A stretch of 64,000 nt of DNA from Micromonospora cremea. GTDB taxonomy: Bacteria > Actinomycetota > Actinomycetes > Mycobacteriales > Micromonosporaceae. The DNA is taken from contig NZ_FSQT01000001.1 of the NCBI RefSeq assembly GCF_900143515.1, positions 2,604,001 through 2,668,000 on the forward strand, read 5' to 3'. Below the pieces are notes generated by a model, which had not been told where the DNA came from, searched no databases, and saw only the letters and a program-made list of their open reading frames with translations. A program made the position numbers and the translations under genes. This document shows positions 25,624 to 58,797 of this stretch, one piece after another (the first letter of the stretch is position 1; each line of letters begins with the position of its first letter).

Positions 25624-27150
25624 TCACGCCTCGGCGGCCAGCGCGAGGACGTCTCGCGCGGTGGGCAGTGCGGCCTCGCGGTGCGCCGGGACGAGACCGA
25701 TGCGGGTGCGCCGGTCGAGCAGGTCGTCGACAGTGAGTGCGAGTTCGTGCCGGGCGGCCCAGAGGAGTTCCGCGCCGGTGACCGGGATGTCGGGGCCGAT
25801 CGGCTGCCGGAGTTCGGTGGGCGCGTCGGCCAGGACGTTGACGGCCTCGGTGCCGTACCGGTGGATGAGCCGGCGTGGCGCGGGGACTCGGGCCAGCTGC
25901 GCCCTGCTCGCCGCGCCGGGCAGCGGGAGGCGGCGGGTGCGGCACCGGCCGGCAGCGAGGCGGCGCTGACGGATGGCGGTGTCGACGGCGTCCTGGGCCA
26001 TCCGGCGGTAGGTGGTGAGCTTGCCGCCGATCACGCTGATGATCCCGTCGGGATCGTCGATGACGGCGTGTCGGCGGGACAGGTCGGCGGTTCGGGTGTC
26101 GGCGTCGGCGAGCAGCGGCCGTAGCCCGGCGTAGGCACCGAGGACGTCGGTGGGTTGTAGCGGCTGATCGAGGACGCTGTTGAGGACGTCGAGCAGGAAC
26201 GCGATGTCGGCGTCGGTGGGTTGCGGCACATCGGGGACCGGTCCGCTCACCGGCTCGTCGGTCAGCCCGGCGTACACCAGGCCGTCGGTCTGGGGCAGGG
26301 CGAAGACGTAGCGGGTGAACTCGCCGGGGACCGGGATGGTGAGGCCGGCCCAGAGCCCGCCCAGACGGGCGGCGGACAGGACGATGTGGGTTCCGCGGGA
26401 CGGACGCAGGTGTACGTGTGGAGTCAGGCTGCTGGCCCACACGCCCGTGGCGTTGATGACGGCTCGGGCGGCGACGTGCATGCGTGCCCCGGTGCGGGTG
26501 TCCTCGATGGTGGCGCCCTCCCGGTGCAGGCTGATCGCCCGGCAGCGGGTCAGGATGCGGGCGGAGTGCGCCGCGGCGGCGCGCGCGAGGCCGACGACGA
26601 GGCGAGCGTCGTCGCAGAGCTGGCCGTCCCAGGACAGGTGTGCACCGCGCAGGCCGCCCGGCCGCAGGGCGGGTGCCATCGCGCGCGCCTCGGCCGAGCC
26701 GAGCCGGCGCGTTCCGGGCAGAGTCCGTCGGGAGGTTCCGGCGCAGGTGCGCAGCAGGTCTCCGGCGTGCAGGCCGGCCGCCGCGGCACCCGCCTGCCAA
26801 CGGCTGGTGTACGCGGTCGCCGGGAGCAGCATCGGCAACGGGCGCGTCAGGTGCGGCGCGGTGCGAGTGAGCAGCAGGTGGCGCTCGGCGGCGCTCTCGT
26901 AGGCGATGCCGACCTGGCCGTGTGCGAGATATCGCAGGCCCCCGTGGATCAGTTTGGAGCTCCACCGGGAGGTGCCGTGGGCCAGGTCGTCGGCGTCGAC
27001 GGCGACCACGGACAGTCCACGGCTCGCGGCGTCGAGCGCCACTCCGGCGCCGGTGACGCCCAGCCCGACCACCAGGACGTCGACGGGCGCCCCGGCGGCC
27101 AGCTCGGTGAGGTCACGTTCCCGGCGGGAGACGGTCAGCGAGGTTTTCAC
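25624..27150 (-). CDS. glpD: Glycerol-3-phosphate dehydrogenase/oxidase, FAD-dependent
   Basis: The product is 508 residues and oxidises glycerol 3-phosphate to dihydroxyacetone phosphate at the membrane, passing electrons to quinone or oxygen. The FAD dinucleotide motif lies at about residues 24-52 (VLVVGLGVTGAGVALDAASR). The family motif GTSRWSSKLIHGGLRYL follows, and the DAO fold continues with GVWASSL and IGGKLTTYR. The C-terminal helical cap domain is present. Translation starts at GTG behind AAGGAGG. It is divergent from an alkyl-DHAP-synthase-like gene only 45 bp away; DHAP made by GlpD would feed the acyl/alkyl-DHAP route. Confidence 0.93.
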   Translation of the reverse strand: MKTSLTVSRRERDLTELAAGAPVDVLVVGLGVTGAGVALDAASRGLSVVAVDADDLAHGTSRWSSKLIHGGLRYLAHGQVGIAYESAAERHLLLTRTAPHLTRPLPMLLPATAYTSRWQAGAAAAGLHAGDLLRTCAGTSRRTLPGTRRLGSAEARAMAPALRPGGLRGAHLSWDGQLCDDARLVVGLARAAAAHSARILTRCRAISLHREGATIEDTRTGARMHVAARAVINATGVWASSLTPHVHLRPSRGTHIVLSAARLGGLWAGLTIPVPGEFTRYVFALPQTDGLVYAGLTDEPVSGPVPDVPQPTDADIAFLLDVLNSVLDQPLQPTDVLGAYAGLRPLLADADTRTADLSRRHAVIDDPDGIISVIGGKLTTYRRMAQDAVDTAIRQRRLAAGRCRTRRLPLPGAASRAQLARVPAPRRLIHRYGTEAVNVLADAPTELRQPIGPDIPVTGAELLWAARHELALTVDDLLDRRTRIGLVPAHREAALPTARDVLALAAEA

Positions 27151-27167
27151 ACGCCTCCTTGCGATGC

Positions 27168-27193
27168 AGTGACGTTCGATGTCACTCTGTCAC
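27168..27193. promoter_or_regulatory. Dyad and direct repeat in glpD/oxidase divergent promoter
   Basis: AGTGAC (27168-27173) and GTCACT (27181-27186) are exact inverted repeats with a 7-bp spacer. TGTCAC is then repeated directly at 27180 and 27188. The cluster fills the 45-bp gap between the two divergent starts, so one bound protein could control both genes; the TetR protein encoded 2.5 kb away is the obvious candidate. Confidence 0.6.
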
Positions 27194-27195
27194 AC

Positions 27196-28761
27196 ATGAA
27201 TATGGAAGGGGAAGCGTCGACCGTCGGGTGGGCCCGCTGGGGCGCCACGAAGAACGCGAAGGCGCTACCGGACTCCGCTTCGACGCTGCTGGCGCAGGTG
27301 CTCGAACTGACACCGCCGCCGCCGGCCGTACCGCTGGCCGAGGTGACGGTGCCCGACTGCGAGCTGGACGACACGGTCCTCAGCGCGCTGCGACGGGCCC
27401 TGGGCGCCGAGCACGTGGTCACCACCCACGACGCCCGGGCACGACACGCGTCCGGCATGTCGACACCGGACCTGCTACGCCACCGGCACGGCGAGGTGCC
27501 GGTGGCACCGCAGGCCGTGCTGCGCCCGGCAGACCACGCCGAGGTGCTGTCCATCCTCGGCCTCTGCTCCCGGTACCCGGTGGCCGTGGTCCCGTTCGGT
27601 GGTGGCACCTCGGTCGTGGGCGGGCTCACGCCGTCCGCGACGCGGCACGTCGCCGTCGATCTGAGCCGGCTGGACAATGTCGTCGCCATCGACCCGTTGT
27701 CGCGGACCGCCACGCTCCAGGCCGGGCTGCGCGCCCCACGGGCCGCCGAGCTGCTCGCCGAGCACGGGTTCACCCTCGGCCACGTCCCGCAGTCCTACGA
27801 GTACGCCACCATCGGTGGATTCGCCGCCACCCGATCGTCCGGCCAGGCGTCGGCCGGCTACGGCCGCTTCGACGACATGGTCATGGCGCTGACGGTCGCC
27901 ACGCCGCGGGGCACCGTCCGGGCGGGCCGCGCCCCCGCCTCGGCCGCCGGCCCCGATCTGCGGCAACTGTTCCTCGGCAGCGAGGGGGCACTCGGCGTCA
28001 TCACCGACGTGACCGTCCGGATCCGACCCCTGCCAGCGCAGTCACACTACGAGGGCTGGTGGTTCGAGTCGTTCGCCGATGGCCTGCACGCCGTGCGGCG
28101 GCTGGCGCAGGACGGGCCGCGGCCCACGGTGCTCCGACTGTCCGACGAGGTCGAGACCATGATCGGGGCGACGGGATCCGGGCGCGCCGACGGCGGCTGC
28201 CAGCTCATCGCCGGGTACGAAGGCACGGACGTCCTTCCCACCGTCGAGGCGGCCGCCGATGTGCTGGCGGCGCACGGCGGGGTGCCACTGGGCGACGAGC
28301 CGGGTCACCAGTGGGCGCGGCACCGCTTCGACGCCCCCTATCTGCGGGACGCGCTGCTGGACGCGGGGGCGTTCGCGGAGACCCTGGAGACCGCGGCGTA
28401 CTGGTCGGCGCTGCCGGAGGTGCACGACCGGGTCCGGCTGGCGATCCTCGACGCGTTGCCGGACGGGGCGCTGGTGTTGGCGCACGTGTCCCATGTCTAC
28501 GAGACCGGCGCGTCGCTGTACTTCACGGTGATCTGCTCTCCCGGCTCGGATCCGGTCGAGCGCTGGCGCAAGGCGAAAGCGGCGGCCAGCGACGCGATCG
28601 CCGCCGCGGGCGCCACCATCAGCCACCATCACGGTGTGGGCGCGGATCATCGCCCCTGGTACGCCGCTGAGATCGGCGATGTCGCCGTGGACCTGCTGCG
28701 ATCGGTCAAACAGCAGTTGGATCCGGCCGGCATCCTCAATCCCGGCATCCTGGTGCCGTGA
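27196..28761 (+). CDS. FAD-binding oxidase, alkyldihydroxyacetonephosphate-synthase-like
   Basis: The product is 521 residues. The PCMH-type FAD domain shows VVPFGGGTSVVGGL (about residues 132-145) and GGFAATRSSGQASAGYGRFDD. The C-terminal cap carries the triple histidine HHHGVG (His477-479). That HHH motif is characteristic and catalytically required in AGPS, which swaps the acyl chain of acyl-DHAP for an alkyl chain to start ether-lipid synthesis. Start choice lies between ATG at 27196 and 27202; a ribosome site is weak. It is divergent from glpD and the lipid-kinase gene follows 1 nt after its stop. A glycolate- or lactate-oxidising flavoprotein is the alternative. Confidence 0.87.
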   Translation: MNMEGEASTVGWARWGATKNAKALPDSASTLLAQVLELTPPPPAVPLAEVTVPDCELDDTVLSALRRALGAEHVVTTHDARARHASGMSTPDLLRHRHGEVPVAPQAVLRPADHAEVLSILGLCSRYPVAVVPFGGGTSVVGGLTPSATRHVAVDLSRLDNVVAIDPLSRTATLQAGLRAPRAAELLAEHGFTLGHVPQSYEYATIGGFAATRSSGQASAGYGRFDDMVMALTVATPRGTVRAGRAPASAAGPDLRQLFLGSEGALGVITDVTVRIRPLPAQSHYEGWWFESFADGLHAVRRLAQDGPRPTVLRLSDEVETMIGATGSGRADGGCQLIAGYEGTDVLPTVEAAADVLAAHGGVPLGDEPGHQWARHRFDAPYLRDALLDAGAFAETLETAAYWSALPEVHDRVRLAILDALPDGALVLAHVSHVYETGASLYFTVICSPGSDPVERWRKAKAAASDAIAAAGATISHHHGVGADHRPWYAAEIGDVAVDLLRSVKQQLDPAGILNPGILVP

Positions 28762-28762
28762 G

Positions 28763-29626
28763 GTGCGGTCCTTCGCAGTGATCCTCGGGCCCACCGCGCG
28801 CCGAGGGTTGTCCCGCCTGATGCCGGTGGCCCATCTGCTCCGCGCCGCCGGCGCCCGGATCCGGGTCGAATACACCCAGACAGCCGAGCAGGCCCGCCAG
28901 TGCGCCACGGCGGCGGTGCACGGCGGTGAGGTGGTCGTCGCCGCCGGGGGCGACGGCACCATCCGGCTGCTCGCCGGCGTGGTCGCCGACACCGACGGGC
29001 TGCTAGGCGTCGTCCCCGCCGGTCGTGGCAACGACTTCGCCCGCCAGCTCGGGTTGCCGCACTCCCCGGACGCGGTCGCGGACCTGCTGCTGCACGGACG
29101 GCCGCGGCACCTCGACGTCCTGAGCGTCGCGGGGCGGACCATCGTCGGCAGCGTCTACGTCGGCGTCGACGCGGCGGCCAACGAGCTGGCGAACCGGTCG
29201 CGTCTGCCCGCGCCGCTGGTGTATCCCACCGCCGGTCTGCGGGCGCTGCTGCGCTGGCCGCGCACCCGGTACACGATCACGGTGGACGGCCGGACGGAGC
29301 AGACGTACGCCTACACGGTGGTGGTCGCCAACTGCGGGTACTACGGCGGTGGCCTGCACGTCGCCCCGGCGGCGCAGCCCGACGACGGGACGATGGACGT
29401 CGTGGTGATCGGACACGCGCCCAAGCTGCTGTTCCCGATCGCGCTGCGACAGATGCGCACCGGCCGGCACGTGGAGCGCCGGCACGTCTTCTCCTACCGC
29501 GGCACGTCGGTCACCGTGTGCGCCGACCGTCCGATGACCGTGTACGGCGACGGTGATCCCGTCGGCCGGACCGCCGAGCTGCACGTCGAGGTCCGCCCGC
29601 GGGCGCTGCGCGTCATCGCCGGCTAG
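28763..29626 (+). CDS. Diacylglycerol/lipid kinase family protein
   Basis: The product is 287 residues from the GTG at 28763, which follows the previous stop by one base. The catalytic-domain motif GGDGT is at residues 62-66 and the VVPAGRGNDFARQLGLP loop follows. The C-terminal beta sandwich includes ANCGYYGGGLHVAPAAQPDDG and VYGDGDPVG. DagK-type enzymes phosphorylate diacylglycerol or related lipids with ATP. Tight coupling to the AGPS-like gene suggests it acts on the same lipid pathway, for instance rephosphorylating an alkyl/acyl glycerol. That role is inference. Confidence 0.9.
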   Translation: MRSFAVILGPTARRGLSRLMPVAHLLRAAGARIRVEYTQTAEQARQCATAAVHGGEVVVAAGGDGTIRLLAGVVADTDGLLGVVPAGRGNDFARQLGLPHSPDAVADLLLHGRPRHLDVLSVAGRTIVGSVYVGVDAAANELANRSRLPAPLVYPTAGLRALLRWPRTRYTITVDGRTEQTYAYTVVVANCGYYGGGLHVAPAAQPDDGTMDVVVIGHAPKLLFPIALRQMRTGRHVERRHVFSYRGTSVTVCADRPMTVYGDGDPVGRTAELHVEVRPRALRVIAG

Positions 29627-29711
29627 GTGCCCGGCTTCCAACAGATCGACACCGTGCGTCACGGAGAACACGAGCACGTCCTGCTCATGCTGGCGAGTTC
29701 GCCGGGAAAGC

Positions 29712-30302
29712 CTAGGCCGGTCGTAGGTAGCCGTCGACGAGCAGCGCCAGCTCCCGGTCGAACTCGGCGAGCGGCACGTCGTCGGCGACCGTGCGGACGG
29801 ACAGCACGAAGGACTGCGTGGTCAGAAAGACAGCGCGGGCCATGACGTCGGGTGTGCCGGGCCGGATCGAGCGGTCCTCGTGACCGTCGGCCAGCGCCGC
29901 CGCGAGGAACTGGAGCATCTCGTCCTGCCCGTTGCCCCGCCGGTCCAGCAGGTACGGGAGCAGCACCTCCGGATCGACGTCACGGATCTTGCACAGCAGC
30001 GGGTGGTCCCGCAGCTGCCCCGCCACCGCGACCACCCGCGACACCAGACGTGACCGGGCAGAGCCGCCGGCCTCGGCGTCCGCCGCGGCCATCAGCACCT
30101 GATGCCACTCGCGGCTCATCAGGTCCCCGATCAGGGACTGCACGTCCGGCCAGCGCCGGTAGACGGTCATCCGGGAGACGCTGGCGCGTCGCGCCACGTC
30201 CGTCATCGTCGTGCGACGGACGCCGTACGCCAGCACGCAGTCACGGGCAGCGTCGAGAACCGTGTCGTCGACGCTGCGCTCGGACTGGCTCGCCTCCACC
30301 AC
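29712..30302 (-). CDS. TetR/AcrR family transcriptional regulator
   Basis: The product is 196 residues. The N-terminal HTH is clear at about residues 28-52 (TMTDVARRASVSRMTVYRRW). The remaining helices form a ligand pocket of the TetR_C type. It is convergent with the lipid-kinase gene and closes the glpD/AGPS-like/kinase cluster. It is the only regulator in that cluster and the likely reader of the dyad at 27168-27193. The ligand may be an acyl-CoA or lipid intermediate, which is inference. Confidence 0.9.
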   Translation of the reverse strand: MVEASQSERSVDDTVLDAARDCVLAYGVRRTTMTDVARRASVSRMTVYRRWPDVQSLIGDLMSREWHQVLMAAADAEAGGSARSRLVSRVVAVAGQLRDHPLLCKIRDVDPEVLLPYLLDRRGNGQDEMLQFLAAALADGHEDRSIRPGTPDVMARAVFLTTQSFVLSVRTVADDVPLAEFDRELALLVDGYLRPA

Positions 30303-50803: not shown

Positions 50804-52660
50804 TCAGGGCACCATCCAGCCGAGGACCGGCGAGCCCTGGAGCGCGACCAGCACACACATGAACAGCAGCAGGAGCAGGCTCCAGCCGAACACCTTGCGG
50901 AAGATCTCCCCCTCCCGGCCGGCCATGCCGACCGCGGCGGCGGCGATGGCCAGGTTCTGCGGGCTGATCATCTTGCCCAGCACCCCGCCGGAGGAGTTGG
51001 CGGCGGCCAGCAACACCGGGTCCAGCCCGGCGCGGGCCGCCGTCTCCACCTGCAACGCCCCGAACAACGCGTTGGCCGAGGTGTCCGAGCCGGTCACCGC
51101 CACGCCGATCCAACCGAGGATCGCCGAGAGGAAGACGAACGCCCCACCGGCGGCGGCCAGGAACGCGCCGAGGGTGTTGGTCTGCCCGGACTGGTTCATC
51201 ACGTACGCCAGGGCGAGCACCGCCATGACGGTGACGATGGCGTACCGCAGCTCGACGTAGGTGCGCCCGTAGGCTCGCAGTGCCCGGCCGGCGGAGACCC
51301 GCAGCACCAACGCGGTGAGCACCCCGGCGAGGATCATCAGCGTGCCGGCGGCGGGCAGCCAGTTGAGGGTGAACGTGGCCGACGACAGCTGGTTGCCGTT
51401 CCCGCCGAGGATGTCCAGGCCGGGCCAGGCGAACTTCACCGTCCACGGCTCGTTGGCCAGGGCGTCCTTCACCGGCCCGAGATTGGCGATGGAGAAGATC
51501 GCGATGATGATCAGGTAGGGCGCGTACGCGCGGGCCACCTCCGCGGGGGTGTCGGCGACCCGGGGGGCGTCCGATCGGTGCGTGCCGCTGTCGGCCGGGT
51601 CCCGGTGCTCCCCTGGACTGTCGTGCGAGACCAGCGGGTCGCCCGGCGGGGTCTCGCCGCCGGGGCCGTCGAGCGACGGTGCGGCGGCGGTGGTCGTACC
51701 GGAGCGGCGACCGGCGGTGGCGCGGACGGCGCCGGGGTCGGCGAGCTCGGCCTCGGCGGGCTCGCGGGCGGCGGGCACGCTCGCCGCCTCCGGCTCGCGG
51801 CCCAGATCGGCGGGGGTTACCGGGCGCCAGACGCGGATCAGCAGCACGACGGCGGCGGCCGAGACCAGCGCGGCGACGATGTCGGTCAGCGGCACGGAGA
51901 TGTAGTTCGCGGCGACGAACTGCGCCAGGCCGAACGTCACGCCGGCGACCAGCGCGGCGGGCCAGGTCTGCCGGATACCGCGCCGTCCGTCCACCAGGGC
52001 CACCAGCAGCAGGGGTACGACCACCGCGAGGATCGGCGTCTGCCGGCCGATCATCGCGCCGAGGGTGTCCACGGTGAGCCGGGAGTCGTCGTTGACGCCG
52101 CTGGTGACGGTGGCCAGGGTGACGACCGGGGTGGCGAGCGCGCCGAACGCCACCGGCGCCGTGTTGGCCAGCAGCGCCACCGAGGCGGCGTGGATCGGTC
52201 GGAAGCCGAGCGCCATCAGCATCACCACGGTGATGGCGACCGGGGTGCCGAACCCGGCCAGCGCCTCCAGCAGCGCGCCGAAGCAGAACGCGATGATGAT
52301 CGCCTGGATCCGCATGTCCGGGCTGACCCGTTCGAACGAGCGACGCAGCACGTCGAAGTGGCCGCTCTCGACGGTGAGGTTGTAGACCCAGATGGCGTTG
52401 AGAACGATCCACAGGATCGGGAAGAAACCGAAGGCGGCGCCCTCGGTGGCCGAGAGCACGGCCTGCCCGACGGGCATGGCGTAGACGGCGATCGCCACCA
52501 CCAGCGCGACCGCGAGCGAGATCAGCCCGGCCAGCCAGGCCTTCACCTTCAGCACGCCGAGCAGGACGAAGAGGGTGAGCAGGGGCAGGACGGCGAAGAT
52601 GGCCGAGAGTGCGACGGAATCACTGACGGGATCGGTGACGACTGTGAACTGGTCGAACAT
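50804..52660 (-). CDS. L-lactate/glycolate permease, LldP/GlcA family
   Basis: The product is 618 residues with about 13 hydrophobic helices of the LctP family, which imports lactate and glycolate with protons. Family segments include TVESGHFDVLRRSFERVSPDMR, LLEALAGFGTPVAITVVML and the C-terminal SSGGVLGKMISPQNLAIAAAAVG. A hydrophilic Pro/Ala/Asp insertion of about 85 residues (near 275-360) lies in a cytoplasmic loop and is longer than in E. coli LldP. It is the last gene of the leftward glycolate operon, so glycolate is the likely substrate here. Confidence 0.92.
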   Translation of the reverse strand: MFDQFTVVTDPVSDSVALSAIFAVLPLLTLFVLLGVLKVKAWLAGLISLAVALVVAIAVYAMPVGQAVLSATEGAAFGFFPILWIVLNAIWVYNLTVESGHFDVLRRSFERVSPDMRIQAIIIAFCFGALLEALAGFGTPVAITVVMLMALGFRPIHAASVALLANTAPVAFGALATPVVTLATVTSGVNDDSRLTVDTLGAMIGRQTPILAVVVPLLLVALVDGRRGIRQTWPAALVAGVTFGLAQFVAANYISVPLTDIVAALVSAAAVVLLIRVWRPVTPADLGREPEAASVPAAREPAEAELADPGAVRATAGRRSGTTTAAAPSLDGPGGETPPGDPLVSHDSPGEHRDPADSGTHRSDAPRVADTPAEVARAYAPYLIIIAIFSIANLGPVKDALANEPWTVKFAWPGLDILGGNGNQLSSATFTLNWLPAAGTLMILAGVLTALVLRVSAGRALRAYGRTYVELRYAIVTVMAVLALAYVMNQSGQTNTLGAFLAAAGGAFVFLSAILGWIGVAVTGSDTSANALFGALQVETAARAGLDPVLLAAANSSGGVLGKMISPQNLAIAAAAVGMAGREGEIFRKVFGWSLLLLLFMCVLVALQGSPVLGWMVP

Positions 52661-52703
52661 GGGTCACCTCGACGCTCGGAGACGGTGGCGGGTGAGTTGG
52701 GCC

Positions 52704-54143
52704 CTACAGCAACTCCTCCACCGGCCGGGCGCGGAGGGAGGCGTCGAGGACCTGGGCGGTGTGGGCCAGCGCGATGTCGCCGCCGGCGCGGGTCACCGCG
52801 GCGGCGACCTGCATGAGGCAGCCGGGGTTGGCGGTGACGAGCAGCCGCGCCCCGGTGGCCAGTACGGTGCGGGCCTTGCGGTCGCCGAGTTCGGCGGCCG
52901 GCCCGGGGTGGAGCACGTTCCAGATCCCGGCCGACCCGCAGCAGATCTCCGGGTCGGCGATCTCCCGCAGCTCCAGCCCGGGAATGTCGCGCAGCAGCCG
53001 GCGGGGCTGGGCGCGGACGCCCTGGGCGTGGGCCAGGTGGCAGGCGTCGTGATAGGCGACGGTCACCGGCAGCGGGTGCCGGGTGGCGACCGGGCCCAGC
53101 TCGTCGAGGAGTTCGGACAGGTCACGCACCTTGCCGGCGAAGTCGGCGGCGAGCGCGGCGTAGCGAGGATCGTCCCGGAGCAGGTCACCGTACTCCTTGA
53201 GGGTGGAGCCGCAGCCGGCCGCGTTGACCACGAAGAAGTCGATGCCAGCGGCGGCGAACGTGTCGAGCATTCGGCGGGCGAAGCGCTGCGCCTCCGCCTC
53301 GCGTCCGTTGTGCACGCTCAGCGCGCCACAGCAGCCCTGCCGGTCCGGCAGGATGACCACGTCGCAGCCCTCGGCGGCGAGCACCCGGGCGGTGGCGGCG
53401 TTGACCTCGGGAAAGAACGCGCCCTGTACGCAGCCGGTGAGCATGCCGACCACGGCCCGCCGGGGGCCGACCGCGGGCACCCGCTGCGGTGGGCGTGCCG
53501 GCCGGCGGAGTCGGGGAGCGAGAGACTCCAGCGCCGCCAGGGTGGGCGCCAGCCGGGGCAGCAGCCCGGTCCGCTGGACCAGGCGACGCACTCCGCTGGC
53601 CTGGTACGCCCGCAGCGGACCGCGCAGCAGCCGCAGCCGCCGCCGGTACGGGAAGATCGCGAAGATCGCCGCCCGCAGCGCCCGCTCCCGGGGCCCGCGA
53701 TGGTGCCGGCGTTCGACCTGCTGCCGGGTGTCCTCGATGAGCCGGTCGTAGCGGACGCCGGACGGGCAGGCGGTGACGCAGGACATGCAGCCGAGGCACT
53801 GGTCGAAGTGGGTGACCATCGAGTCGGACAGCGGCTCGCCCTCCAGGCCCTCCTTCATCAGGTAGATCCGCCCGCGCGGCGAGTCCATCTCCTCGCCCCA
53901 CAGCACGTAGGTGGGGCAGGTGGGCAGGCAGAAGCCGCAGTGCACACAGTCCGAGACCAGCTCGGCGGCCGGCGGGTGGTGCGCGTCGAACGCGCCTACG
54001 CCGGGCGGTTGGCCGGCCAGGCCGAGCACGTCACGCGGCCCGCTGGCCGGGCGGGTTCCGCCCGGGGAGGAGAGCGGCGCGGGGACGGAGGGCCGACCGG
54101 TGCTCGTCAGGTCGCGGGGGTCGGGCTGCTGGGGAACGGACAT
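52704..54143 (-). CDS. glcF: Glycolate oxidase iron-sulfur subunit GlcF
   Basis: The product is 479 residues from ATG 54143, with GGGAGGG upstream and 1 nt after the glcE stop. Two 4Fe-4S ferredoxin motifs lie at C66/C69/C72/C76 and C116/C119/C122/C126. Two CCG domains (GCVQGAFFPEVN and YHDACHLAHAQGV, ending CCGSAG) follow, as in GlcF, LldE and HdrD. It passes electrons from GlcD/GlcE to the quinone pool. The first 55 residues are a Pro/Ser-rich extension not seen in E. coli GlcF. The permease gene follows 43 bp downstream. Confidence 0.92.
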   Translation of the reverse strand: MSVPQQPDPRDLTSTGRPSVPAPLSSPGGTRPASGPRDVLGLAGQPPGVGAFDAHHPPAAELVSDCVHCGFCLPTCPTYVLWGEEMDSPRGRIYLMKEGLEGEPLSDSMVTHFDQCLGCMSCVTACPSGVRYDRLIEDTRQQVERRHHRGPRERALRAAIFAIFPYRRRLRLLRGPLRAYQASGVRRLVQRTGLLPRLAPTLAALESLAPRLRRPARPPQRVPAVGPRRAVVGMLTGCVQGAFFPEVNAATARVLAAEGCDVVILPDRQGCCGALSVHNGREAEAQRFARRMLDTFAAAGIDFFVVNAAGCGSTLKEYGDLLRDDPRYAALAADFAGKVRDLSELLDELGPVATRHPLPVTVAYHDACHLAHAQGVRAQPRRLLRDIPGLELREIADPEICCGSAGIWNVLHPGPAAELGDRKARTVLATGARLLVTANPGCLMQVAAAVTRAGGDIALAHTAQVLDASLRARPVEELL

Positions 54144-54144
54144 C

Positions 54145-55431
54145 TCAGATCCCTCCCACGAATCGGCCGGGCGCGAGCCGGGCATCGGGGTCGAAGCGCT
54201 CCTTGACCCGGCGCATCAGTGCCAGACCGTCGACGGGTCCCCACAGGTCGACCCGGTCCCGCACGGGCGGGGGCGCGGTGAGCACCACGGCGTGCCCGGC
54301 GACGGCGGCGCTCGCCGTCCGCAGCGCGTCGACCAGGTCGGCGACCCGCTGCGGGTCGGCCGTGCCGGGCAGCCCGGCGTAGAGCACTCCGACGCCGGCC
54401 GAGCCGCGCAGCGCGAGCGGCAGGCCGCGCCGGTCGGCCGCGGCCCGGGCGTCGGCCAGCAGCCGGGGTACGCCGGAGAGCGCTGCGGTCAGCTTCAGCC
54501 CGGTGTCGCCGTCCCGCCACGGGTACCGGCCCCAGCCGTCCGGAGGCTCGTCGGACGCGGTGGCGTCGACGCCGAGCAGCCGGCGGGTCGCCTCCGCGCG
54601 GGCGGCCACCCCGGCCGCGGTGCCCTCCAGCAGCACCGTCACCGCCGCTCCCCCACCGGCCGGCGCGTCCAGCTCCAGCGCGGTGGGCACGAGCTGCGCG
54701 GCGCGTACGCTGCCGGCGAGCCGACCCGCCTCGGCCGGGTCGTCGGTCCGGCGGGTGACGTACGCGACCGCGGGCGGCAGCGGGTGCAGCCGGAACGCGC
54801 ACTCGGTGATCAGCCCGAGCGTGCCGTACGCGCCGGTGACCAGCTTGGCCAGGTCGTAGCCGGCGACGTTCTTGACCACCTTGCCGCCGGCGTGCGCGAT
54901 CACGCCGTCGGCGCGGACCATGGTGACCCCGATGATCAGGTCGCGCACCGTGCCGTAGAGCATCCGGCGGGGCCCGCTGGCGTTGGTGGCGACCATCCCG
55001 CCGACCGTGCCGCCGGGCAGCGCCGCGTCGAGGGCGAGCTGCTGGCGGGCGCCGGCCAGGGTGGCGGCCAGCTCGTCGAGGCGGGTGCCGGCCCGGACCA
55101 CGGTGATCAGGTCACCGGCGGCGTGCTCGACCACCCCGGCCAGCGCGGTGGTGTCGAGGATGAGGTCGAGTCGCGAGGGTGGGCCTCCCCACGACTGCTT
55201 CGTGGCGGCGCCGCGGACCGTCACCGCGAGGTCGAGGGCGGCGGCCGTCCGCAGCAGGGCCGCGGCCCCGGCGGTGTCGCGGGGTGCGGCGACGTAGCGC
55301 GCGGGCACCCCGGCGATCACGTCGTGCTCGCCGGCCGGCCGGACCGACTCGGAGCCGTCCGAGCGCCGGCCGTCGGTCGTGGTCTCTCCGGCGGCGGCGC
55401 GGAGCCGGTCGAGGATCGCGTCGGTGGGCAT
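54145..55431 (-). CDS. glcE: Glycolate oxidase FAD-binding subunit GlcE
   Basis: The product is 428 residues. A PCMH FAD-binding domain fills the first half (VTVRGAATKQSWGGPPSRLDL, GGTVGGMVATNASGPRRMLYG). The C-terminal part is reduced relative to GlcD, ending with the RFDPDARLAPGRFVGGI segment typical of GlcE. It is a non-catalytic or electron-transfer partner in the GlcDEF complex. Its ATG overlaps the glcD stop by one base (TGATG), so translation is coupled. Confidence 0.92.
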   Translation of the reverse strand: MPTDAILDRLRAAAGETTTDGRRSDGSESVRPAGEHDVIAGVPARYVAAPRDTAGAAALLRTAAALDLAVTVRGAATKQSWGGPPSRLDLILDTTALAGVVEHAAGDLITVVRAGTRLDELAATLAGARQQLALDAALPGGTVGGMVATNASGPRRMLYGTVRDLIIGVTMVRADGVIAHAGGKVVKNVAGYDLAKLVTGAYGTLGLITECAFRLHPLPPAVAYVTRRTDDPAEAGRLAGSVRAAQLVPTALELDAPAGGGAAVTVLLEGTAAGVAARAEATRRLLGVDATASDEPPDGWGRYPWRDGDTGLKLTAALSGVPRLLADARAAADRRGLPLALRGSAGVGVLYAGLPGTADPQRVADLVDALRTASAAVAGHAVVLTAPPPVRDRVDLWGPVDGLALMRRVKERFDPDARLAPGRFVGGI

Positions 55432-56903
55432 CAGAACGCCTCCGCCAGGCCGGCCTCCTGCGCCGGATGGACCCCCTTGCGTCGACCGGGGATCTCACCG
55501 CAGAGCCGGGGCGTCGGGAAGACCTTGCCGGGGTTCGCCAGACCGGCCGGGTCGAACGCGCAGCGCAGCAACTGCATGGTGTCCAGGTCGTCGTCGGTGA
55601 ACATCCGCGGCATGTACTTCGCCTTGTCCATGCCGACGCCGTGCTCACCGGTGATCGACCCACCGTGGCTCACGCAGAGGTCGAGGATCGCGCCGGAGAC
55701 CTCCTCGGCGCGTTCGGTCTGCCCGTCGACGGCCGCGTCGAAGAGGACGAGCGGGTGCAGGTTGCCGTCGCCGGCGTGAAAGACGTTGGCGACCCGGATG
55801 CCGCGTTCGGCGGAGAGCTCACCGATGCGGCGCAGCACCGCGGGCAGGGCGGTGCGCGGGATGACCCCGTCCTGGACGATGTAGTCGGGGCTGATCCGCC
55901 CGACGGCGGCGAACGCGGACTTGCGGCCCTTCCAGAACAGCGCCCGCTCGGCGTCGTCGGCGGCGATCCGAATCTCGAACGCCCGGTTGTCCCGGCAGAG
56001 CCGTACCACCTGGTCGAACTGGGCGGCCACCTCCGGTTCCGGCCCGTCCAGCTCGACGATGAGCACGGCGCCGGCACCGGCCGGGTAGCCACAGTGCACG
56101 GCCTCCTCGGCGGCGGAGATGGCGAGCGCGTCCATCATCTCCACCGCCGCCGGCACCACCCCCGCCGCGATGATCGCCGAGGTCGCCGCGCCAGCCTGGT
56201 CGGTGCTCTCGAAGGCGGCCAGCAGGGTGCGCACCGACTCGGGCAACCGGGTCAGCCGCACGGTCACCTCGGTGGCGATGCCGAGGGTGCCCTCGGAGCC
56301 GACGAACGCTCCGAGCAGGTCGTAGCCGGGGGCGTCGGGCGCCCGGCCGCCGAGGCGTACCCGATCGCCGTCGGGGGTGACCAGCTCGACGCCCGTGACG
56401 TGGTTGGTCGTGAAGCCGTACTTCAGGCAGTGGGCGCCGCCGGAGTTCTCCGCCACGTTCCCGCCGATGGAGCAAATCTGCTGGCTGGACGGGTCGGGCG
56501 CGTAGTACCAACCGTGCGGGGCGGCGGCCCGGCTGACCGCCAGGTTGATCACGCCGGGCTGCACCACCGCCCGCTCGTCGGACGGCGCGACCTCCAGGAT
56601 CTCCCGCATCTGCGAGGTGACGATCAGGACGCCGTCGGCGTGCGGCAGCGCGCCTCCGGAGAGCCCGGTGCCGGAGCCGCGGGCCACGAACGGGGTGTCG
56701 GCGGCGACGCAGGCGCGGACCACGGCGGCGCACTGCGCGGCATCGGCGGGAAGGGCGACGAGGGCGGGGACCACCTTGTACTGGGCCAGCCCGTCGCACT
56801 CGTAGGTGCGCAGCTGCTGTCGGTCGCTGATCACCCGATCCGCGCCGATGGCGGCCCGCAGGGCGACGGTGAGAGCTTCAAGGTCCATTCTGGCTGTGCT
56901 CAT
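55431..56903 (-). CDS. glcD: Glycolate oxidase catalytic FAD subunit GlcD
   Basis: The product is 490 residues from ATG 56903, with GGAGGTGGG upstream; a far longer open frame upstream runs antisense-like over aceB and is not coding. The FAD-binding motif is FVARGSGTGLSGGALPHADG, the PDPSSQQICSIGGNVAENSGG segment is diagnostic of GlcD, and the C-terminal FAD-oxidase cap ends with SITGEHGVGMDKAKYM and the FDPAGLANPGKVFPTP closing motif. It oxidises glycolate (or D-lactate) to glyoxylate (or pyruvate). It sits between aceB and glcE and forms a continuous operon. Confidence 0.95.
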   Translation of the reverse strand: MSTARMDLEALTVALRAAIGADRVISDRQQLRTYECDGLAQYKVVPALVALPADAAQCAAVVRACVAADTPFVARGSGTGLSGGALPHADGVLIVTSQMREILEVAPSDERAVVQPGVINLAVSRAAAPHGWYYAPDPSSQQICSIGGNVAENSGGAHCLKYGFTTNHVTGVELVTPDGDRVRLGGRAPDAPGYDLLGAFVGSEGTLGIATEVTVRLTRLPESVRTLLAAFESTDQAGAATSAIIAAGVVPAAVEMMDALAISAAEEAVHCGYPAGAGAVLIVELDGPEPEVAAQFDQVVRLCRDNRAFEIRIAADDAERALFWKGRKSAFAAVGRISPDYIVQDGVIPRTALPAVLRRIGELSAERGIRVANVFHAGDGNLHPLVLFDAAVDGQTERAEEVSGAILDLCVSHGGSITGEHGVGMDKAKYMPRMFTDDDLDTMQLLRCAFDPAGLANPGKVFPTPRLCGEIPGRRKGVHPAQEAGLAEAF

Positions 56904-56935
56904 CGCCCACCTCCGCGCGTCGGGTCGGTCGTCGG

Positions 56936-58519
<1,584 letters not shown>

Positions 58520-58797
58520 CGGCTCGCTCCTCACCATGACATGCGTGGTGATCGATTGGACGCGCTCCTGCCGACTGTAGTTCTTGCAGTTCGGACCCGC
58601 GACCTGAGCGACGACACAGTCGCCGGGAGCGGTCGACCCGGTGCGGCGAACGGCGCCTCAGGCGCGGCGAGCGGCAAATGAGCCGCGAGGCGGCGAGAGC
58701 CGGGTGCGGCCCGCGACGCCGGCCCGGCGGCCGCCACGTTCAGCCGCCGTTAATCTCCACGTCGGTATGCTGCGGCCGCGGATGGAAGCGGGGGGCG

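Follow-up and report, generated by a model that had tools for sequence, protein, structure and literature searches.

An AGPS-like flavoprotein and a linked glpD paralogue in Micromonospora cremea: a conserved actinobacterial gene set with a putative role in lipid metabolism

Apart from those of the myxobacteria, the ether lipids of aerobic bacteria have received little explanation, and a four-gene locus of Micromonospora cremea raises the question whether chemistry of the alkyldihydroxyacetonephosphate synthase (AGPS) type takes place in this organism and, if so, on which substrate. The locus lies at 25624-30302 of the window, i.e. the whole 64,000-nucleotide stretch analysed here (contig NZ_FSQT01000001.1, positions 2,604,001 to 2,668,000), in a genome of 7.76 Mb and two contigs. 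It comprises a glpD paralogue, hereafter GlpD-A (25624-27150, minus strand; GTG start, 508 amino acids; Pfam DAO and DAO_C), and, across a divergent promoter, an AGPS-like flavoprotein, hereafter OX (27196-28761, plus strand; 521 amino acids; Pfam FAD_binding_4 and FAD-oxidase_C), together with a lipid kinase and a TetR-family regulator. A preliminary description, made from the sequence alone, had read these genes as a route to O-alkyl glycerolipids fed by GlpD with dihydroxyacetone phosphate (DHAP). Its gene coordinates, the 45-bp gap between glpD and the oxidase gene (27151-27195) and the 1-nt gap between oxidase and kinase genes were found as given there; the pathway is plausible, though its first version is probably not the right one. 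Our preferred reading, of moderate confidence, is that OX performs AGPS-type chemistry on a DHAP-lipid within a dedicated GlpD-OX unit.

By alignment and phylogeny, OX is a protein of the AGPS superfamily that forms its own distinct actinobacterial clade. The preliminary description had called the oxidase AGPS-like, and the tree, the fold rank, the N-terminal extension and the active site agree in setting it with AGPS rather than with the glycolate or lactate dehydrogenases. In the tree (quick mode, with support from the Shimodaira-Hasegawa-like approximate likelihood ratio test), the OX clade was supported at 95, AGPS at 99 and a further AGPS-like group (AGPS2) at 100, all of them split from GlcD at 97-99. 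Long branches are flagged in this tree, including L029, L030, the GlcD of the window and the guinea-pig pieces; L029 and L030 fall in no group, protein rows are missing for L013 and L060, and L012, L054, L057 and L062 were omitted (partial). The AGPS rows used throughout are our choice of 29, both eukaryotic and bacterial, from 120 matches to a Dictyostelium query, plus the guinea-pig protein. In a different list, that of 120 homologues of OX, some already bear "alkyldihydroxyacetonephosphate synthase" as an automatically assigned name, and the nearest Micromonospora protein listed is 93% identical to OX.

Tyr508, Arg352 and Arg447 of Dictyostelium AGPS are described as important by mutagenesis in a passage of PMC3509576, and they align with Y442 (codon 28519-28521), R314 and R384 of OX, the Dictyostelium numbers having been counted by us with a constant offset of 3 between chain index and published numbering. 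Y442 thus occupies the position of the catalytic Tyr (Y578 in guinea pig), and the triple histidine, residues 477-479 (codons 28624-28632) of the HHHGVG motif at 477-482, is likewise retained, so that all AGPS catalytic Tyr, Arg and His positions mapped are kept. The same residues were found in 44/44 OX-clade, 29/29 AGPS and 8/8 AGPS2 rows, and neither the Tyr, either Arg nor the triple His occurs in any of the 12 GlcD rows, among which is the window's own GlcD. OX resembles the solved AGPS of guinea pig (4bby) and Dictyostelium (2uuu) further in its fold and N-terminal extension, its AlphaFold model aligning to AGPS from residue 3 and to LDHD from residue 57. This model is middling (pLDDT, the predicted local distance difference test, 77.6), with values below 50 in the FAD loops and in the first ten residues. 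The AGPS-type N-terminal motif W-x-G-W-G is present in 15 of the 44 OX rows, the window having a degenerate WARWG. OX differs from AGPS in its separate clade, its linkage to glpD, often with a DagK-type kinase, its length (521 amino acids versus 658 in the guinea-pig chain and 611 in Dictyostelium), and a Gln, Q199 (codon 27790-27792), at the position of guinea-pig Asp303. This column holds Asp in 29/29 AGPS rows, Gln in 43/44 OX rows (Glu in L014) and Gln in 8/8 AGPS2 rows. L030 (G047:C6), an actinobacterial AGPS-like protein that neighbours the AGPS rows on a long branch, has Asp there.

The linkage of glpD with OX is the strongest result of the analysis. The view of these genes as a unit was upheld, and the arrangement goes beyond chance: glpD and OX recur together, often with TetR and kinase. 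In 60 of the 61 loci, the window's own (L001) included, glpD adjoins OX, while in L014, the one exception, the upstream sequence amounts to 13 bp; two of these loci (L009 and L055) belong to one genome and some have flanks of only 1.5 kb. Among 118 genomes sampled evenly from the class, 34 have an OX-clade gene, of which two (G130 and G157) have it split in two pieces and the others were counted at an identity of at least 49% along almost the entire protein; every one of the 34 has a distinct glpD paralogue within 1035 bp of it. A module-type glpD without an OX-clade match was found in G080, a genome 75% complete. A tetR relative is present in 47 of the 61 loci (3-4 kb from OX in L042 and L062); it sits between glpD and OX in most other families and, in Micromonospora, after the kinase on the opposite strand. 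Within 8 kb of 20 named loci, a simple gene caller revealed no further gene common to all beyond these four. Only 4 of 37 Micromonospora genomes have a close OX orthologue (77-100% identity), so the module is accessory within this genus. In a plasmid collection, six records match OX, three of them at 49-59%, and two whose gene neighbourhoods were inspected, the plasmids of Tsukamurella tyrosinosolvens and Streptomyces fungicidicus, display the order glpD (minus), tetR (minus), OX (plus) and kinase (plus). A pair as fixed as this, present in 34 of the 118 genomes sampled, offers one testable reaction, that of AGPS, and one testable paralogue, GlpD-A.

Why OX should be accompanied by a glpD of its own is the second part of the question. 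The nearest solved chain to GlpD-A is E. coli GlpD (2qcu, 1.4e-51), yet GlpD-A scores below the NCBIfam equivalog cut-off (PRK12266, 263.9 bits versus 360). M. cremea also carries another glpD, at 47% identity to GlpD-A, and a further GlpD (1e-60 or better) occurs in 33 of the 34 OX genomes, the exception being G168. Module and canonical GlpD form separate groups, with support of 100/100, a long-branched canonical sequence (L125) lying beside the module group. Residues were compared in rows from the window and 18 of the 20 named loci (L054 and L062 being too short) and in canonical rows from 18 of 21 loci (none from L116, L126 and L127). GlpD-A keeps R73, Y74, H255, R344, R359 and K377, at the positions of what we take to be the substrate residues of E. 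coli GlpD (R54, Y55, H233, R317, R332 and K354), and this set is kept in 19/19 module and 18/18 canonical rows. Fixed changes from canonical to module sequences (E. coli numbers) include the bulky-to-small Y108G, Y141S, L68A and W261Q and others such as T270L; these changes are a hint only as to the pocket.

A role for GlpD as DHAP supplier, as the preliminary description had it, is weakened by these data. DHAP is a glycolytic intermediate, the genome holds a second GlpD and GlpD-A belongs to a separate subfamily. With DHAP available from glycolysis, there is little reason for a private GlpD to supply it, and the separate subfamily suggests another substrate. GlpD-A would be best explained as converting 1-acyl- or 1-alkyl-glycerol-3-phosphate (G3P) to acyl- or alkyl-DHAP, which AGPS consumes or forms. 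A genuine GlcD gene, with the GEH motif, is found ca. 0.9 kb from the second glpD, and this proximity was treated as unrelated because of that motif.

In the scheme that we prefer, the module would be a conserved, probably TetR-controlled lipid module of actinobacteria. GlpD-A, dedicated to OX, would supply the keto substrate by oxidising a glycerol-3-phosphate at C2; free G3P is a less likely candidate for this than a lipid, either 1-acyl- or 1-alkyl-G3P. The oxidised FAD (flavin adenine dinucleotide) of OX would then trap C1 of the DHAP-lipid as an N5 adduct, with Tyr442 as the base; exchange of the acyl or alkyl group at C1 would follow. Where present, the kinase may phosphorylate mono- or di-radylglycerol and so feed or drain the pathway, and TetR would bind a palindrome in the divergent promoter. 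We infer the substrates and the repression, and the pathway may run towards ether synthesis or towards salvage and cleavage.

A number of observations weigh against this scheme or parts of it. The identity of OX to solved AGPS is no more than 26-29%, and at Q199 the AGPS rows carry Asp, so that its substrate may differ. Given that the six G3P-contact residues are kept, free G3P would fit GlpD-A equally well. In one family, five genomes (G076, G096, G114, G130 and G146) have their second GlpD just 3-6 kb away from the module, as would befit ordinary glycerol metabolism. Only 27 of the 61 loci yielded a kinase. No clear fatty acyl-CoA reductase was detected in the genome, which has only weak, unspecific matches; for an alkyl-DHAP reductase, no search by family was made, short-chain dehydrogenases being too many. 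The literature searched yielded no title that deals with ether lipids in these genera. In Myxococcus xanthus, disruption of MXAN_1676, which is closer to human AGPS, is reported in the review PMC9131029 to cause only a minor drop in ether lipids.

Part of this evidence bears on the alternatives as well. A classical synthesis of ether lipids, in which GlpD-A yields DHAP, an unlinked acyltransferase makes acyl-DHAP, OX forms alkyl-DHAP and the kinase recycles alkylacylglycerol, would agree with the kinship of OX to AGPS and with the G3P-contact residues kept in GlpD-A. We regard it as unlikely: DHAP requires no dedicated GlpD, and a second one is present. The GPAT_C domain, which GNPAT presumably bears, had no match in the M. 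cremea genome, although the E. coli control rang, and was matched in 9 of the 34 OX genomes versus 6 of the 84 others, 25 of the 34 giving no match. The search for an acyl-DHAP acyltransferase was therefore negative for this family, while the nine PF01553 (PlsC-like) acyltransferases of the genome could include one that substitutes as DHAP acyltransferase. For NAD_binding_4, the fatty acyl-CoA reductase family, which rings in 14/14 controls, six matches were weak (best 45.9 bits), and the literature titles without ether lipids of these genera also count against a classical synthesis. PF10520 (CarF/PEDS1) had no match in this genome nor in any control genome.

OX might instead direct AGPS-type flavin-adduct chemistry to a non-ether substrate, for instance by acyl exchange on acyl-DHAP with no ether being formed, or in a glyoxylate-linked role. 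The exchange of Asp for Gln in 43 of 44 OX-clade rows is consistent with this, as is a distant relative encoded near glyoxylate-pathway genes on a plasmid of Mycobacterium dioxanotrophicus; that relative, however, shares only 36% identity, carries Lys in place of R384 and Phe in place of H196 and is not adjoined by a GlpD, and OX itself keeps every catalytic residue tested, so that we consider this quite improbable. Least probable is an identity of OX as a GlcD/LDHD-type 2-hydroxyacid dehydrogenase in which HHH happens to occur. Such enzymes share the Pfam architecture and the fold with OX, but lack the AGPS residue set and have GEH and HAGDGN-x-H motifs where OX shows HHH and SHVYETGASLYF. 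This assignment was tried and rejected: the NCBIfam glcD score of OX is 145 bits for a cut-off of 567.9, the GlcD motifs are absent and the tree sets the two apart. The GlcD of the window (55431-56834) served as internal control.

A more speculative and rather unlikely possibility is that the locus encodes an oxygenase-free pathway of ether-lipid salvage or cleavage. The kinase would phosphorylate 1-O-alkylglycerol, GlpD-A would oxidise the resulting alkyl-G3P to alkyl-DHAP and OX would reverse the AGPS reaction, so that a fatty alcohol is freed and acyl-DHAP or DHAP remains. Such an order would lack no enzyme, and its steps would proceed oxidatively, as a quinone-linked GlpD works; control by TetR and the patchy distribution in Micromonospora would also suit an accessory catabolic trait. 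GlpD-A would then be a lipid-G3P dehydrogenase, an enzyme of which we know no description.

Returning to the GlpD-OX unit as preferred above, the gene set itself is already known from annotation. In Mycobacterium, Rv2249c (glpD1), Rv2250c (regulator), Rv2251 (flavoprotein) and Rv2252 (diacylglycerol kinase) form one stretch in a regulator study of BCG (bacillus Calmette-Guerin), a table of which prints values of 2.11-2.28 for Rv2249c-Rv2252 (PMC4564863, excerpt). Their annotated content, order and strands are those of the Tsukamurella, Streptomyces and Nocardia loci, whereas in Micromonospora tetR comes after the kinase; the likeness is one of order and annotation. The earlier statement that the route is not described for these bacteria thus stands only in part, the gene set being known and homologues being automatically named AGPS, while no title on a glpD/AGPS-like pair was found in the literature searched, outside of which most subscription journals lie. 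The module would suggest a role for the mycobacterial locus, whose flavoprotein Rv2251 is given no function in the excerpt of PMC4564863. Rv2252 is described as a diacylglycerol kinase towards phosphatidylinositol (Owens 2006, as cited in a passage of PMC3229680), and overexpression of glpD1 left the persister level unchanged (PMC4866775, in part).

The bacterial AGPS example, MXAN_1676, lies in an operon with a gene for a fusion of FAR1- and GNPAT-like parts (PMC9131029, in part). Homologues of the M. xanthus Agps are reported in many phyla, Actinobacteria included (passage of PMC11868695). In some orders of Actinobacteria, ether lipids are known to arise through plsA/plsR (PMC9702350, excerpt); this anaerobic plasmalogen route differs from the module in using other reductases, which act on diacyl lipids. 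Overall, the module points to a little-studied pathway of ether-lipid metabolism or lipid remodelling spread across actinobacteria.

The remaining genes of the locus were characterised as follows. The kinase (28763-29626, plus strand; GTG start, 287 amino acids) belongs to the YegS/Rv2252/BmrU family, with DAGK_cat and YegS_C domains, a GGDGT motif and a TIGR00147 score of 127 bits (cut-off 118.65). The TetR-family regulator (29712-30302, minus strand; 196 amino acids) has a TetR_N domain. Inside the 45-bp gap, a palindrome AGTGAC-N7-GTCACT (27168-27186) is a likely TetR operator, its weight coming from conservation. It is the sole exact match in the window, a count that itself says little because ca. 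2 chance matches per window are expected with two mismatches; it is exact in 10 of the 11 Micromonospora/Salinispora gaps read, a single base differing in L010. Inspection by eye of 11 gaps from other families showed TGTGAC/TGTCACA boxes in five (L044, L046, L047, L049 and L051) and in none of the remaining six.

Other AGPS-like genes were also encountered. AGPS2, present in M. cremea itself (C1:2732318, 39% identity), has the catalytic residues of OX; in contrast to OX, no module-type glpD, kinase or TetR was found in the 1.5-kb flanks of the AGPS2 loci searched. AGPS2 is possibly, we assume, of the same kind as Rv3107c, named agpS (PMC4928086, in part). The AGPS2 gene of this genome (L075 8303-9862, on C1) stands, by eye, beside fur-katG, and the OX module of the S. 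fungicidicus plasmid is likewise beside annotated Fur and katG. Among 22 places with AGPS-like genes other than OX, GlpD lies within 5 kb in four: G144 (279 bp), G069 (3.0 kb), G092 (3.6 kb) and G070, in which the OX module is next door. The more distant AGPS-like gene of G144 (C93:15823-18818; 38%, its GlpD 44%) suggests that the glpD/AGPS-like pairing may predate the OX clade. Plasmid-borne AGPS-like oxidases (36%) of M. dioxanotrophicus (L131 10049-11392) and Rhodococcus pseudokoreensis (L132 5770-7395) keep the Tyr and HHH, with R384 replaced by Lys, and lie ca. 6 kb or less from a hydroxyacid-oxoacid transhydrogenase, the former also near glyoxylate carboligase; they could serve ether or glyoxylate catabolism.

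As to neighbouring genes, a metallophosphoesterase-like protein and protein kinases are, by eye, conserved next to the module in Streptosporangiaceae. In the window, a fatty acid desaturase (PF00487; 32724-33767, minus strand), 2.4 kb beyond tetR and kept in three related Micromonospora loci, is a possible lipid-related neighbour outside the PEDS1 family. Further along, 50804-58537 (minus strand) holds a glycolate/lactate utilisation set composed of a lactate permease, two further subunits that look GlcF/GlcE-like by eye, the GlcD with GEH and malate synthase, with Pfam support for permease, GlcD and malate synthase.

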